DNA of 64,000 bases, from assembly GCF_900112765.1 (NCBI RefSeq), contig NZ_FOMZ01000004.1:49446-113445 (forward strand), in the 5' to 3' direction. Source of the DNA: Actinopolyspora alba (GTDB lineage Bacteria > Actinomycetota > Actinomycetes > Mycobacteriales > Pseudonocardiaceae). The position numbers and the translations under genes are program-made. The notes below the pieces were generated by a model. That model was not told the DNA's origin and searched no databases. It saw nothing but the letters and a program-made list of their open reading frames with translations. Of this stretch, positions 2,744 through 9,394 are shown piece by piece; position 1 is the first letter of the stretch; each line of letters starts with the position of its first letter.

Positions 2744-3496
2744 CTACTGGCCGGGCTCCTGTTCCAGGACGCGGTGCAGTCCGGCGATGTCGTGGAGTTC
2801 GATGGCCGCGTAACGTACGGTGATCAGTTTGCGGGCCTCGAACTCCTTGAGGATCTTGTTCAGTGAGGGGCGCTGCGCACCGACCATGGCGGCCAGGGTC
2901 CGCTGGGGCAGCGGGACGCGGTCCTCGGCGGCCTCGTCGAGCAGCAGCTGGGCGACCTGCTGGGGCAGCGAGCGGCCGAGCAGTCCGATCACCCGTTGCT
3001 GGCTGGTCGCCGGACGCTGGGCGACGCTGGACAGCCAGCGTCGCAGGATCGCCGGGTGCTGTCCGAGCAACCGCTCGAAGTCCGCGGCGGACAGGAACAG
3101 GACGGTGGCGTCCTCCAGCGCCCGGGCGGTGTAGGGCAGGATCATCTCCAGCAGGTGCTGGATGTCGCCGTCGACGTCGCCGGGCCGCAGCACGTGCACC
3201 ACCGAGCGCCGCCTGCCCGAACTCACCGACAGCTCCACCCGGCCCTCCCGGACGATCCACACCCCGGCGGGTGCGGAACCACCGTGGAACAGCGGGGCAT
3301 GCCGGGACACGTGCCGGGTGCGCAGGAACGTCGCCAGTGCGGTGAGGTCGTCCGGCCGCAGCGGTGCGGCCTCCCCACGCCCGACGCAACGTGCCACCCA
3401 CGCGGCCTGCCGGACGGCCAGCTGCGCCTCGTCGCCCGGGCCCAGGGCCCGTACGGCTCGGTCCAGCGCCGCGCTCGACAGGCGGGAGAAGGTCAT
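2744..3496 (-). CDS. Crp/Fnr-family transcriptional regulator
   Basis: A 250-residue protein starting at ATG 3496 (MTFSRLSS). An upstream in-frame extension to 3601 looks non-coding and was not used. A cyclic-nucleotide-binding-type beta-barrel spans about residues 45-150 (around [14 protein letters not shown] and LRPGDVDGD). A C-terminal winged helix follows at about 190-245, with [20 protein letters not shown] as the recognition region. No cysteine cluster typical of FNR is seen, so the signal may be a small ligand. It is transcribed in the same direction as the flavoprotein at 1281-2657 and is a plausible regulator of it. Confidence 0.88.
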
Positions 3497-3637
3497 GGGG
3501 TCATCATGGCACCGAACGCCGGCTACCGGGGCTCCGATCGGCCCGAGGAGATCCCCTCGGGCCTCGGTCGTTTCGCGGCGGCGCGAACCGGATCGCCTCA
3601 CGGGACGAGGCGATCCGGCGGTAGAGGTGATGCGTGC

Positions 3638-4069
3638 TCAGTGGGCGGTCCTGTGACGGATGCCGTACAGCACCAGCGCGGTGACCGCGCCGTAGAGCAG
3701 GTGGCCGATGAGCGACGGCAGCGCGGTGGCGCCGAGTTGCAGGATCGGCATGCCGAGCATGGCGGGCATCAGCACCAGCGGCCCCAGAACCCACCAGGCG
3801 AGTCCGTACAGCAGCCCGTAGCCGAACAGGCGCCACAGCCGTGCGTGCGGAGCAAGCACCCCGAAACCCGCTCCGATCCCGGCGGAGATGACCAGATGCA
3901 CCACCAGGCCGATCACGGGACCGCTCGCCCCGACCAGGCCCGCGATCATGGTCAACATCCCCGTCATCGCCATCAGTGCTCCGAACACGATGCCGCCACC
4001 GATCCCGGCTGCCGCGCCGGACAGCGCGCCGGTTACCAGCCTGGTCGGCATGTGTGTGGTGGTGGACAT
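3638..4069 (-). CDS. small tetraspan membrane protein of unknown function
   Basis: A 143-residue hydrophobic protein starting at ATG 4069, directly preceded by GGGGGGAGCGACC. About four transmembrane segments are visible, rich in Gly/Ala/Leu/Met (for example the stretch with GIGGGIVFGALMAMTGML and the one with YGLLYGLAWWVLGPLVL), ending in a short basic tail. The frame stays open far upstream, but that part has no membrane character and no ribosome site. I do not recognise a family. It may be co-transcribed with the Crp gene, which lies 141 nt downstream. Confidence 0.7.
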   Translation of the reverse strand: MSTTTHMPTRLVTGALSGAAAGIGGGIVFGALMAMTGMLTMIAGLVGASGPVIGLVVHLVISAGIGAGFGVLAPHARLWRLFGYGLLYGLAWWVLGPLVLMPAMLGMPILQLGATALPSLIGHLLYGAVTALVLYGIRHRTAH

Positions 4070-4315
4070 GGTCGCTCCCCCCTCATCGCTGAGTAGCCAC
4101 GAGTCCGCTCCCGGAGGACGGGGAGCGAAACCGTTGGCGGAAGTCCCTTCCGCACGGGTGTTCAGTCCGTGTGAACCGACCCGTCCCGGCAGATGTTGGT
4201 TCGTGCCGCCGGTCACATCGCCCAGTGCAGCGCATGTGTCCTCCACCGGGGTGGGGAGTGTCAGCCTGGTGACACCTTCGGCCGGGTTTTTCCGTCGGCC
4301 GCTTCGGGGCATGTC

Positions 4316-5095
4316 GTGAGCGTGGGTGAACGTGAGGACTGGCGGGGCTACCTCGCCGCGTTCCACGCGCATCGGCCCGGTGTGACCGAGCGGGTGTTCG
4401 CGCGGCTGGACGACGATCCGTACGAGTGGGTGACGGCACCGCTCCGCGAACTCGGGAGCGGGTTGGTCGTGGATCTGGCCTGCGGCTCGGCCCCCACGCG
4501 GCCGTGGCTGCGCGAGCGTCGGTGGGTGGGGGTGGACCACAGCGCCGAGGAGCTGGCCGCTGCCGCCGGGGCGGGGCGTGGACCGCTGGTGCGGGCACGC
4601 GCGGACGCGCTGCCGGTGGCCACCGGGGCTGCCGGGGCGGTGTGCGCGGCGATGGCGCTGCCGCTGCCGGTCGTGCTCGACGAGATCCGCCGGGTGCTGC
4701 GGCCCGGCGGTGCGCTGGTGGCACTGGTGCCCGCGCGGATCGGCCTCGACCCGGCGGGCTGGTTCGCGTGGCTTCGGGTGCTGCGCGCCGCGGGGGTCCC
4801 GGCCCCGCGCTGGCCGAACCCCCGTGCCCGCGAACACCTCGGCGGGGTGCTCGACCGCGCCGGTTTCGAGGTGCTCGACTCCGAACGCCGCGTGTTCTCG
4901 TTCCCGCTGCAGTCACCGGAGGACGCCGCGGTGCTGCTGGAGAGCCTCTACGATCCCGCCCGTCCTCCGTCCCGCCCCACGGATCCGCGCGTGGCGGCGG
5001 CCGTGGCGGAGTCGGTCCGCGCACTGCCGATGCCGCTGCGCCGGATCGTGGCCCGGCCTCAGGCCAGGGTGCCCAGCCACGTGGTCAGTCCGTAG
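4316..5095 (+). CDS. class I SAM-dependent methyltransferase
   Basis: About 259 residues from a GTG at 4316 (VSVGEREDW); a GTG at 4322 or an earlier in-frame start is also possible. Motif I appears as VVDLACGSA (about residues 51-59), the acidic loop as WVGVDHS, and the later LRPGGALVALVP strand is typical of methyltransferases with a Rossmann fold. The substrate is not evident. The 3' end overlaps the end of a minus-strand small peptide gene (5059-5187) by 37 nt. It shares the island with a Tes-like radical SAM protein and a second methyltransferase, which suggests action on the same or a related metabolite. Confidence 0.82.
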   Translation: MSVGEREDWRGYLAAFHAHRPGVTERVFARLDDDPYEWVTAPLRELGSGLVVDLACGSAPTRPWLRERRWVGVDHSAEELAAAAGAGRGPLVRARADALPVATGAAGAVCAAMALPLPVVLDEIRRVLRPGGALVALVPARIGLDPAGWFAWLRVLRAAGVPAPRWPNPRAREHLGGVLDRAGFEVLDSERRVFSFPLQSPEDAAVLLESLYDPARPPSRPTDPRVAAAVAESVRALPMPLRRIVARPQARVPSHVVSP

Positions 5096-5187
5096 CGGGC
5101 CGCGTAGGTGGCGGTTCCGATGAGCAGGACACCGGGCAGCCGAGCGGAGCTGCGTGCCGGGGTTCGGCGTCGGAGTGGTCGGGTCAC
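5059..5187 (-). CDS. 42-residue single-pass membrane peptide
   Basis: The start GTG at 5187 follows a strong GGGAGGAA site. The product is basic at the N-terminus (TRPLRRRTPARSSAR) and then has one hydrophobic segment (LPGVLLIGTATYAARYGL), ending in TLA. No homologue comes to mind. It overlaps the 3' end of the methyltransferase gene tail to tail. It could be a small membrane anchor or a substrate peptide of the neighbouring enzymes. The ribosome site and membrane segment make a real gene likely, but its short length limits confidence. Confidence 0.5.
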   Translation of the reverse strand: MTRPLRRRTPARSSARLPGVLLIGTATYAARYGLTTWLGTLA

Positions 5188-5505
5188 TGTTTCCTCCCGG
5201 CGGGGGAGGCCGATTCGGCCGTCGGCGGGCACTCGTCCTTCTCGGGCCGACCAGTTCCCGTACCCACCACAGCCTCGGCACATCGCACCGGAACGACTCC
5301 TTCGGGCTCCAGGACAACCACCGGTCAACCGGCCGTGCGCGGCGTTGGCGAGGTGAGTGTCGGCACGATGACAACTTCCCGTGCCGTGGTCCTCGCCGCG
5401 CCGAGGCCGTTGGGGACCGCTCTCCGCTTTCGTTCGTGGCGATCGGTGTCAGCGGCCGGACACTTCGCGTGTCGGATCGCGCGGTGGTGTGGTGCGCTAG
5501 GAGCC
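5188..5505. other. gene-free region between divergent peptide and flavoprotein genes
   Basis: About 320 nt between two divergent starts. No convincing frame is present on either strand. It should hold both promoters, but no clear -35/-10 pair stands out. Confidence 0.5.
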
Positions 5506-6864
5506 ATGACCCACGGCGAGGTGCTGGTGCTCGGTGGTGGGGCGGCCGGGCTGGCCGCCGCGAACACCGCGCACCGGGCGGGGATGCGGGTGACGCTGGT
5601 TTCCGAGGGCGCACCGGGTGGCGACTGCACGTTCACCGGTTGCGTGCCGTCGAAGACGCTGATCGAGGCCGCCGATGCGGGACCGTCGTTCTCCGAGGCC
5701 GTGGCCCGGGGGCGGCGGACGGTCTCGCGGGTGGCCGCCACCGAGGACGAACACGTGCTGCGGTCGGAGGGCATCGACGTCGTGCGGGGGCGGGCGCGGT
5801 TCGTGGCCGAACGCGCGGTGGAGATCGACGGCCACCGCAGGAGTGCCCGGCGGGTGGTGCTCGCCACTGGGGCTCGTCCCGCCGTTCCCCCGGTGCCGGG
5901 GTTGGGCGAGGTCGAGTACCTGACCAGCGACACCGTGTTCGACCTGGTGGACCCACCCACCTCGCTGGTGGTGCTCGGCGGGGGACCGGTCGGATGCGAG
6001 CTCGCCCAGGCGCTGGCCCGGCTGGGGGTGGGCGTGACCCTGGTCGAACGGGCACCACGGCTGCTGCCCGGCGTGGACGCCGAGGCCTCCGAGGCGCTCG
6101 CCCGGGCGCTGCGGACCGACGGCGTGCGGTTGCGCACCGGCGCACCGGTCCGCCGGGTGCGCTCCTCGGACGGGAAGATCCTGGTGGAACTCGCCGACGG
6201 TGAGGCGGTGCGCGGTGAACGGTTGCTGGTGGCCACCGGACGTCGACCGAACACCGAGGGAATCGGGCTGGACACCGTGGGAGTGCGGACCGACCGGCAG
6301 GGGCACGTGCTCGTCGACCGGCACATGGCCACCACGGCGAGGGGTGTTTCCGCCGCCGGTGACGTGACGGGGGTGTTCGGCCACACCCACGCGGCCTACG
6401 CGATGGGGCGCGTGGCGGTGCTGGCAGGCACCCGACGCACCCGGCGCCCCGCCTTCGAACCGGACTCGGTTCCCCGCGTGGTGTTCACGAGCCCGGAGGT
6501 CGCCACCGTCGGCCGCGCCGAGCACGAACTCGCCGACACCGCCGCCAGGACGGCTTATCTGCCGATGAGCGAGGTGGACCGGGCGGTGACCGCCGACGCG
6601 GAGGCCGGGGTCGTCAAGCTGTTCGCCGGGCCGCGCGGACCGCTCGGACATCTCGGGGGAGGGCGGGTGCTCGGGGCGAGCATCGTGGCCCGGCGGGCCG
6701 GGGAGATGATCCACGAGCCCGCGCTGGCGATGCGTACCGGCATGTTCGCCGGGCGGCTGGCCCAGACCGTGCACGCCTACCCCAGCTGGTCGATGGCGGT
6801 CCAGCGGGCCGCCGCGCAGTTCGTCGGTACCCACGGCGGACGTACCGCCCGTCCGGCGGGCTGA
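5506..6864 (+). CDS. FAD/NAD(P) disulfide oxidoreductase (mercuric reductase-like)
   Basis: A 452-residue protein from ATG 5506 behind TAGGAG; the open frame upstream lacks family similarity. It has an FAD motif GGGAAGLAAA, a redox disulfide GGDCTFTGCVPSK (C41, C46), an NAD(P) motif VVLGGGPVGCELA and a second FAD motif SAAGDVTG. The C-terminal HPTxxE expected in dihydrolipoamide dehydrogenases is AYPSWSM here, so the catalytic His-Glu pair is absent. It is unlikely to be a true lipoamide dehydrogenase and may reduce a special thiol, quinone or metal(loid). The radical SAM gene starts 81 nt downstream on the same strand, suggesting an operon. Confidence 0.9.
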   Translation: MTHGEVLVLGGGAAGLAAANTAHRAGMRVTLVSEGAPGGDCTFTGCVPSKTLIEAADAGPSFSEAVARGRRTVSRVAATEDEHVLRSEGIDVVRGRARFVAERAVEIDGHRRSARRVVLATGARPAVPPVPGLGEVEYLTSDTVFDLVDPPTSLVVLGGGPVGCELAQALARLGVGVTLVERAPRLLPGVDAEASEALARALRTDGVRLRTGAPVRRVRSSDGKILVELADGEAVRGERLLVATGRRPNTEGIGLDTVGVRTDRQGHVLVDRHMATTARGVSAAGDVTGVFGHTHAAYAMGRVAVLAGTRRTRRPAFEPDSVPRVVFTSPEVATVGRAEHELADTAARTAYLPMSEVDRAVTADAEAGVVKLFAGPRGPLGHLGGGRVLGASIVARRAGEMIHEPALAMRTGMFAGRLAQTVHAYPSWSMAVQRAAAQFVGTHGGRTARPAG

Positions 6865-6945
6865 AACCGCGGCCGTGATCGTGGAGAGTGTCCGGTCGCC
6901 GACAGTTCCACTGCGAACCGGGCCGGGGACTGCTGTGCTTCCCCC

Positions 6946-8598
6946 ATGACCGAACTCTCCGAGAGCGAGCGACCGAGCGATCGTGCTCGGCGCAAACGGG
7001 ACCGCGACGAGGTGTTCGTGGAGTTCACCAGGAGCGTCTGCCCCGTGTGCAAGACGGTGATCGACGCGCAGGTCAACCTCCGCGACGACAAGGTCTACCT
7101 GCGCAAGCGCTGCCGCGAGCACGGCGAGTTCGAAGCCCTGGTCTACGGCGACGCGCGGGCCTACATGAACTCCGCCCGGTTCAACAAACCCGGCACGATC
7201 CCGCTGCGCTTCCAGACCGAGGTGGCCGAGGGCTGCCCCTCGGACTGCGGGTTGTGCCCCGAGCACAAGCAGCACGCCTGCCTGGGCATCATCGAGGTCA
7301 ACACCGACTGCAACATGGACTGCCCGATCTGCTTCGCCGACTCCGGGCACCAGCCGGACGGCTACTCGATCACCCCCGAGCAGTGCGCGCACATGCTCGA
7401 CATCTTCGTCGAGGCCGAGGGCGAGCCGGAAGTGGTGATGTTCTCCGGCGGTGAGCCCACCATCCACAAGCACATCCTCGACTTCGTCGACCAGGCCCAG
7501 CGACGGCCGATCAAGGCGGTCAACCTCAACACCAACGGCATCCGGCTGGCCACCGACGAGCGGTTCGTGCACGCGCTGGGAGAGCGCAACCGTCCCGGCA
7601 GGCGGATCAACGTCTACCTGCAGTTCGACGGGTTCGACCGGGACACGCACCTGGCGATCCGCGGCAAGGACCTCCGCGAGCGCAAACGGCGCGCCCTGGA
7701 CAACTGCGCCGAGGCCGGGCTGACCGTCACCCTGGTCGCCGCCGTGGAACGGGGGCTCAACGAACACGAGATCGGCGACATCATCCGGTTCGGCGTCGAA
7801 CACCCGGCGGTGCGCTCGGTCGCGTTGCAGCCGGTGACTCATTCTGGCAGGCACGCCGAGTTCGACCCGCTCAACCGGTTGACCAACCCCGAGGTGATCG
7901 GGCACGTCGCCGACCAGTGCCCCGACTGGCTGCGCGGGGACGACTTCGTTCCCGTGCCGTGCTGCTTTCCCACCTGCCGCTCGATCACCTACCTGCTGGT
8001 CGACCACAAGGAGGACCGCACCGACGTCGTGCCGATCCCTCGACTGATCGATGTGGACGAATACCTGGACTACGTGAGCAACCGTGCGGTGCCCGACCAC
8101 GCGGTGCGCGAGGCGCTGGAGAAGTTGTGGAGCGCCTCGGCGTTTCCGGGGACCGAGACCACCGAGACCAATTTGGACACCACCGCCGCCGAGCTGGAGT
8201 GCGAGGCGTGCGGAATCGACCTGCCCGAAGCCGCCAGGGGACTCGGCGACAAGGCCTTCATGATCGTGGTGCAGGACTTCCAGGACCCCTACACCCTCAA
8301 CGTCAAACAGCTCATGAAGTGCTGCGTCGAGGAGATCACCCCCGACGGACGGATGATCCCGTTCTGCGCCTACAACTCCGTCGGCTACCGCGAGCGGGTC
8401 CGCGCCGAGCAGTCCGGGGTGGAAGTGGACGGCGTGGTGCCCAACTCGACCGAGCTGCGCGGGATCACCACCGACTCGCCGTACGGATCGAGAATCGTCC
8501 CCCGCGATACCGAGGCCACCACCGCCGAGCGGCGTAGTGCTCGTTCGGGAGCCGACTCGACCGGCACCGAGGTGAGGGGAAGCGGTCATGACGAGTGA
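6946..8598 (+). CDS. radical SAM protein of the Tes/MJ0619 type
   Basis: A 550-residue protein. The radical SAM cluster motif is CNMDCPIC (C122, C126, C129). It is preceded by the extra cysteine block GCPSDCGLCPEHKQHAC (C97-C112) that marks the family of archaeal tetraether synthase (Tes) and the MJ0619 pterin methylase. N-terminal cysteines (VCPVC, RC) and C-terminal ones (CEACG, KCC, FC) suggest additional metal or FeS sites. MFSGGEPT is the SAM-binding GGE motif. The family makes C-C bonds or methylations by radical chemistry; the bacterial substrate is unknown. It overlaps the next methyltransferase by 11 nt, so the two are translated together. No strong ribosome site precedes the ATG. 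Confidence 0.9.
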   Translation: MTELSESERPSDRARRKRDRDEVFVEFTRSVCPVCKTVIDAQVNLRDDKVYLRKRCREHGEFEALVYGDARAYMNSARFNKPGTIPLRFQTEVAEGCPSDCGLCPEHKQHACLGIIEVNTDCNMDCPICFADSGHQPDGYSITPEQCAHMLDIFVEAEGEPEVVMFSGGEPTIHKHILDFVDQAQRRPIKAVNLNTNGIRLATDERFVHALGERNRPGRRINVYLQFDGFDRDTHLAIRGKDLRERKRRALDNCAEAGLTVTLVAAVERGLNEHEIGDIIRFGVEHPAVRSVALQPVTHSGRHAEFDPLNRLTNPEVIGHVADQCPDWLRGDDFVPVPCCFPTCRSITYLLVDHKEDRTDVVPIPRLIDVDEYLDYVSNRAVPDHAVREALEKLWSASAFPGTETTETNLDTTAAELECEACGIDLPEAARGLGDKAFMIVVQDFQDPYTLNVKQLMKCCVEEITPDGRMIPFCAYNSVGYRERVRAEQSGVEVDGVVPNSTELRGITTDSPYGSRIVPRDTEATTAERRSARSGADSTGTEVRGSGHDE

Positions 8599-9394
8599 AG
8601 GTGCTCCCACCGATCCCGACACGATCAAGCACTGCTGCGCGACGGCCTACGGCCGCGACGTGGTGGCGCTCGTGCTCGGCGAGTCCTACCACCCGGGCGG
8701 GCGCGCGCTGACTCGGACGTTGGCCGAGGCGGTCGGACTGCGGCCGGGAGAGCGGGTCGCCGACGTCGCAACCGGTCCCGGCGACACCGCCCGGCTGCTG
8801 GCCGCCGAGTACGGTTCCGTCGTCGACGGCGTCGACCTCGGGACGGAGGCCGTGCGGCGGGCGCGCGAGACGACCGAGCGGGTCGGGCTCACCGGGCGGG
8901 TGCGGTTCCACACCGGTGACGCCGAACGGATGCCGCTGCCCGGGGATTCCTTCGACGCGCTGGTGTGCGAGTGCGCCCTGTGCACCTTCCCCGACAAGCC
9001 CGCCGCCGCGGCCGAGTTCGCCCGACTGCTGCGCCCCGGCGGTCGGGTGGGCATCACCGACATCACCGTCTCGTCCGCGGGGCTTCCCGACGAGCTCGCG
9101 GGGCTGACCGGCTGGATCGCCTGCCTGGCCGACGCCCGCCCGCTCGACGACTACACCGCCACACTGGCCGGGGCGGGGTTGCGCGTCACCCGCGCCGAAC
9201 GGCACGATCGAGCACTCACCGACATGGTCGACCGGATCGAGGCACGCCTGAGGCTGCTGCGCATGACCGCCCCCGAGCGCCTGGCGAACTCGGGGGTCGA
9301 CGTGGACGCCGTGCTGGCGCGCACCCGCGACGTCACCGAGGCCGTCGCGGACGGCGTCCTCGGCTACGCCCTGCTGACCGCCACGAAAGCCTGA
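8588..9394 (+). CDS. ArsM-like SAM-dependent methyltransferase
   Basis: A 268-residue protein overlapping the end of the radical SAM gene. The N-terminus has a Cys pair (IKHCCATAYG) and LGESYHPGG, followed by motif I VADVATGPGDTA and GDAERMPLP. This arrangement resembles arsenite methyltransferases and their relatives. Cysteines in VCECALCTF could bind a thiophilic ligand, but the full conserved arsenite cysteine set of ArsM is not obviously present. Coupled translation with the Tes-like enzyme suggests that the pair act on one product. Methyl transfer to a metalloid, a lipid or a peptide are all possible. Confidence 0.85.
   Translation: MTSEGAPTDPDTIKHCCATAYGRDVVALVLGESYHPGGRALTRTLAEAVGLRPGERVADVATGPGDTARLLAAEYGSVVDGVDLGTEAVRRARETTERVGLTGRVRFHTGDAERMPLPGDSFDALVCECALCTFPDKPAAAAEFARLLRPGGRVGITDITVSSAGLPDELAGLTGWIACLADARPLDDYTATLAGAGLRVTRAERHDRALTDMVDRIEARLRLLRMTAPERLANSGVDVDAVLARTRDVTEAVADGVLGYALLTATKA

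Follow-up and report, generated by a model that had tools for sequence, protein, structure and literature searches.

The window analysed here is a stretch of 64,000 nucleotides from Actinopolyspora alba, and the feature of concern within it is a 42-codon open reading frame (ORF) that runs on the minus strand from a GTG at position 5187 to a TGA that ends at 5059. A Shine-Dalgarno-like sequence, GGGAGGAA, lies upstream of the GTG at 5198–5191 on the same strand, with its GGAGG core ending 5 nt before the start. Convergent with the ORF is a class I methyltransferase gene (PF08241) on the plus strand at 4322–5095, whose start codon is uncertain (its ORF opens at 4193), and the two genes overlap tail to tail by 37 nt (5059–5095). 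Also on the plus strand, at 5506–6864, lies a gene for a MerA-like pyridine nucleotide-disulphide oxidoreductase, for which the best NCBIfam match is MerA at 358.5 bits against a cut-off of 454.45. The first-pass annotation had proposed that the 42-codon ORF encodes a real, tiny membrane peptide. Re-reading of the sequence bore out its description of the ORF's coordinates, strand, GTG start and length of 42 residues, as well as the strong ribosome site, the basic N-terminus and the 37-nt overlap.

The single hydrophobic helix that was also claimed stood only in part. Prediction with AlphaFold, run without an alignment, gave one helix at residues 10–41 with a pLDDT above 90 at residues 21–40. 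The hydrophobicity of this helix is weak: its best 19-residue Kyte-Doolittle mean is 0.93, compared with 1.56–2.45 for the matching helix of 33 homologues, a set made up of 32 of the 33 loci in named genomes described below (L105 lacks that end) plus L062, with the damaged genes L106 and L107 included. Taken by themselves, the ribosome site, start and helix of the ORF are no more than chance would give. In the window, 14 start codons open an ORF of 30–60 amino acids and have GGAGG a short distance upstream, of which one reaches a hydrophobicity of 0.93; ten Markov-1 random windows contained 10–30 such start codons, with 0–2 reaching the same value. Searches with the 42 residues returned no match to Pfam at E ≤ 10 and none to NCBIfam at E ≤ 1. 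A chance ORF was nonetheless rejected as an explanation, since both ends of the ORF are homologous to a longer gene, and it is this homology, rather than any feature of the ORF itself, that establishes its descent from a gene.

A search of 61 genomes (that of A. alba and 60 relatives) gave clear matches to the last 29–31 residues of the ORF in four other genomes, with E values from 1.6e-9 to 1.1e-4 and identities of 81% in Actinopolyspora righensis, 65% in Actinopolyspora mortivallis, 61% in Haloechinothrix halophila and 62% in Amycolatopsis arida. In each of the four, the matched stretch is the C-terminal end of a protein of 125–131 residues. Some match at E ≤ 1 turned up in 58 of the 61 genomes, and all except those in A. 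alba and these four relatives had E ≥ 0.01, a level expected by chance from a query of this length. A. righensis carries a 125-codon gene of 378 nt at the same place (positions 8001–8378 of locus L076), where the ORF of the window has 129 nt. Comparison of the DNA of the two species requires one gap of 249 nt, which is 83 codons and in frame, and with this single break 110 of the 129 nt are identical. The window thus retains the start of the long gene, about 15–18 codons, together with roughly its last 25 codons. The retained 5′ part (5187–5134) is identical to the A. righensis gene start at 40 of 54 nt, and the next best ungapped placement on either strand of the 19.9-kb A. righensis locus reaches 31 of 54. 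A protein alignment that set this N-terminal part against the second loop of the long protein was contradicted by the DNA comparison. The third and last helix is encoded by the retained 3′ part (5133–5059), in which Thr and Arg stand in the positions of a Val and a Leu of A. righensis, respectively.

The deletion junction is ambiguous within positions 5132–5141, and the flanks of the missing piece in A. righensis resemble each other (CTGCCCG and CTGGCCG, or CTGnCCG), which suggests that the deletion may have arisen between short similar sequences. The missing part carries two of the three predicted helices and three cysteines that are invariant in the family; the product of the window ORF has the third helix only and no cysteine, so that both the Cys-Cys pair of helix 1 and the loop Cys are absent. 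The long form occurs in A. mortivallis (loci L054 and L077), which belongs to the genus but is less similar, and in other genera, so parsimony places the deletion in the lineage of the window. Alternatively, the gap could stem from faulty assembly of a genome that carries the full-length gene. The assembly is a draft of 42 contigs; against such an error, the junction is internal to a contig of 391938 bases, the retained parts themselves deviate from conserved residues, and the remnant itself (E 8e-6) was the only match at E ≤ 1e-4 in the assembly, with no intact copy found elsewhere. We regard an assembly error as highly improbable.

The long gene belongs to a family of actinobacterial membrane proteins that has no Pfam name and that is recognised by a CC-x-GP motif. 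A start and a last helix ending in TTWLG..A, both homologous to those of the family, are present in the window ORF, which differs from other members in having lost the 83 codons with predicted helices 1 and 2. With A. righensis L076 and 32 more, the family was found at 33 loci in named genomes; that scan used two peptide patterns, both located in the stretch that the window lacks, and would overlook other copies deleted in the same way. In 30 of the 33 loci, CC-x-GP, the loop Cys and the final helix all lie in a single open frame, a count that concerns the core and not the start codons (L094 shows no ATG, GTG or TTG before the motif). Two of the three exceptions, L105 and L106, are cut or frameshifted, and the third, L107 from Saccharopolyspora elongata, has an in-frame deletion of its own of 34 residues that is separate from that of the window. 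At 6710–8240 of L107, the MerT-like gene and a radical SAM gene (residues 55–340 missing) are both broken, and this locus is a second case of decay in the same gene group. An alignment of 19 of the 33 loci, in which the rows for L080 and L081 do not begin exactly at the likely start, has Cys-Cys-x-Gly-Pro in helix 1 and one Cys before the last helix in all 19 members. A model of the A. righensis protein places helices at residues 20–58, 64–86 and 90–124 with low confidence (mean pLDDT of 64). One plasmid member was found, and it is annotated as a "hypothetical protein".

A search of 249 genomes of the taxonomic family, which did find the remnant in the window yet samples a larger group, gave 16 genomes with a match: 13 with an intact gene, the window, and two with a broken gene (G624 and G612). 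One of the 13 intact genes, L125, had escaped the core pattern and was recognised by alignment. The other 15 genomes with a match did not show the short 42-codon form. The first-pass annotation had offered conservation of the frame and start in relatives as a check on the peptide, and both are indeed conserved, only there they are parts of the longer gene, and among the 16 matching genomes the short form was seen in the window alone. Within the genus, the radical SAM neighbour occurs in 3 of 10 genomes, and the MerT-like gene occurs in those same three.

A possible function for the long protein is suggested by MerT, which has three membrane spans (PMC3466566). Four family members scanned singly against the MerT family (PF02411) scored 11.4–16.1 bits, all below the Pfam gathering cut-off of 32.9. 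MerT was the most common Pfam match, hitting 15 of 19 members at E ≤ 1 with a best value of 0.00054; better single E-values came from DUF2231 (0.00013, six members) and Cation_ATPase_C (0.00027, three members). The NCBIfam MerT and MerTP matches to the intact family (E 0.0066–0.21) fell far below the cut-offs, and hhalign of the family against only four MerT sequences covered 23 columns, those surrounding the Cys pair, with a probability of 81.5. Among solved structures, nothing significantly related to the intact family was found (best E of 0.38). No MerT passed the Pfam cut-off in any of the 61 genomes of A. alba and its relatives. One did so among 396 genomes of the phylum (genome G399, locus L109), where the protein is 100% identical to a MerT from a Methylophaga pinxianii plasmid and may represent contamination or transfer. 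The intact family resembles MerT in its length of about 125 residues and its three predicted helices (in a low-confidence model), in the Cys-Cys-x-Gly-Pro of helix 1, and in the MerA-like reductase that is found nearby in several genomes and whose gene is a neighbour of the intact MerT-like gene in several relatives. It differs in scoring below the Pfam cut-off with a profile match limited to 23 columns, and in having one invariant Cys in the second loop, before helix 3, in place of the two in the four MerT sequences compared; the window's own product differs further in having no Cys at all. The parent protein may therefore work like MerT, although we do not file it as a MerT member.

The gene group to which the MerT-like gene belongs is recurrent in actinobacteria. 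It spans positions 2744–9394 of the window and was seen in varying order at loci L076–L108, and its members are the MerT-like protein, the MerA-like flavoprotein, a radical SAM protein, two methyltransferases, a Crp-like regulator and a DUF1440-like membrane protein. The radical SAM protein is related in sequence to TrsS and Tes (338 and 322 bits, respectively), with scores below the NCBIfam cut-offs. A table in PMC13188914 has an entry for TrsS as a selenoprotein.

What remains of the gene in the window bears several signs of relaxed constraint. At the position preceding the conserved Tyr/Phe of the last helix, 32 of 33 homologues have Leu and the other has Ile, and the window has Arg. Identity to A. 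righensis is 37 of 37 nt in the overlap with the methyltransferase gene, 33 of 38 in the next part of the last helix and 40 of 54 in the N-terminal part, so the last helix appears to be best kept where the methyltransferase gene needs the same bases, on small numbers. The overlap with a live gene may account for the preserved 3′ end of the remnant. Three neighbouring genes, lying on both sides, have 92–97% DNA identity to A. righensis. Upstream of the ORF, 95 of 163 aligned nt are identical to A. righensis at 5188–5355, and 107 of 138 at 5356–5505. The first of these values hints that the segment 5188–5355 was replaced or is changing fast. Such low identity upstream is more than a simple deletion accounts for and counts against reading the ORF as a remnant.

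A different outcome of the same event would be that the deletion made a functional single-helix peptide from the parent's start and last helix, with an activity in the membrane such as pairing with other membrane proteins. An open frame, a good ribosome site and the helix predicted with confidence speak for such a peptide, as does the close similarity of the three adjoining genes to those of A. righensis. However, it would be a peptide with an Arg within its helix, with a hydrophobicity below that of all 33 homologues compared, with no cysteine left and with no counterpart in the other 15 matching genomes, and we consider it unlikely. A more specific proposal is that a new, still-translated one-helix peptide, with MerT-like ends and without the cysteines, now modulates its partners in the cluster (the MerA-like, radical SAM and methyltransferase proteins), and this we consider very unlikely. 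Since the short form is known from one genome only, selection on the 42-codon form is not measurable.

The overlap itself had been proposed to allow antisense regulation between the two convergent genes, an idea that is compatible with the other readings. The 37-nt overlap is present in both the window and A. righensis, identical at every position. Nine of the loci fetched hold both genes, and among them the genes overlap only in A. righensis and, by 4 nt up to the first stop codon, in Amycolatopsis acididurans; in the other seven the MerT-like and methyltransferase genes lie apart or are differently ordered, and for the remaining 24 of the 33 loci the fetched stretch contains no methyltransferase match. 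These loci thus lend no support to conserved antisense regulation. A scan covering one promoter type found no promoter-like site in 4900–5560, the one terminator-like site (plus strand, 5411–5426) lies outside both genes, and no Rfam family reached its gathering score in 4000–6000. Regulation of this kind seems scarcely credible here.

We conclude, with a probability of roughly 0.88, that the 42-codon ORF is a decaying gene remnant, left by an in-frame deletion in the coding sequence of a MerT-like membrane protein of about 125 residues and probably three helices. This reading rests on the homology of both ends, the exact loss of 83 codons relative to A. righensis, the full-length genes of relatives and the failure to find an intact copy. 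That the deletion is in frame says little, as one in three would be by chance, and an open frame with a good start and ribosome site need not persist in a long-dead gene, which is a point against the remnant. In the sequence of events that we envisage, a 249-nt in-frame deletion in the lineage of the window, probably between short similar sequences, would have brought the basic start next to the last helix, with the loss of two helices and the three invariant cysteines. The parent may have been a metal transporter, its function would have been lost in the window, and the remnant would now be free of selection except in the stretch that it has in common with the methyltransferase gene. The peptide may still be translated because the start codon and ribosome site survive. 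The ORF is best read as a pseudogene, at most a translated fossil. The tiny membrane peptide first proposed thus has a frame and start that trace to a real gene, but it looks like what an internal deletion left of a protein of about 125 residues and not like a purpose-made peptide.

Pseudogenes formed by in-frame internal deletion are a known class, and the ORF of the window resembles them in having kept an open frame, lost the functional core and acquired a substitution at a conserved site. What sets it apart from them is the overlap of its 3′ end with an intact gene, which may offer that end some shelter; beyond this overlap, the remnant is ordinary. Its wider lesson is that a small-protein candidate may look convincing, with a good ribosome site, a basic start and a helix, and yet be left over from a deletion and owe these features to the longer gene; comparing it with a single close relative goes most of the way to deciding between remnant and peptide. 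More interesting than the remnant is the MerT-like family from which it descends, together with the genes that neighbour it.
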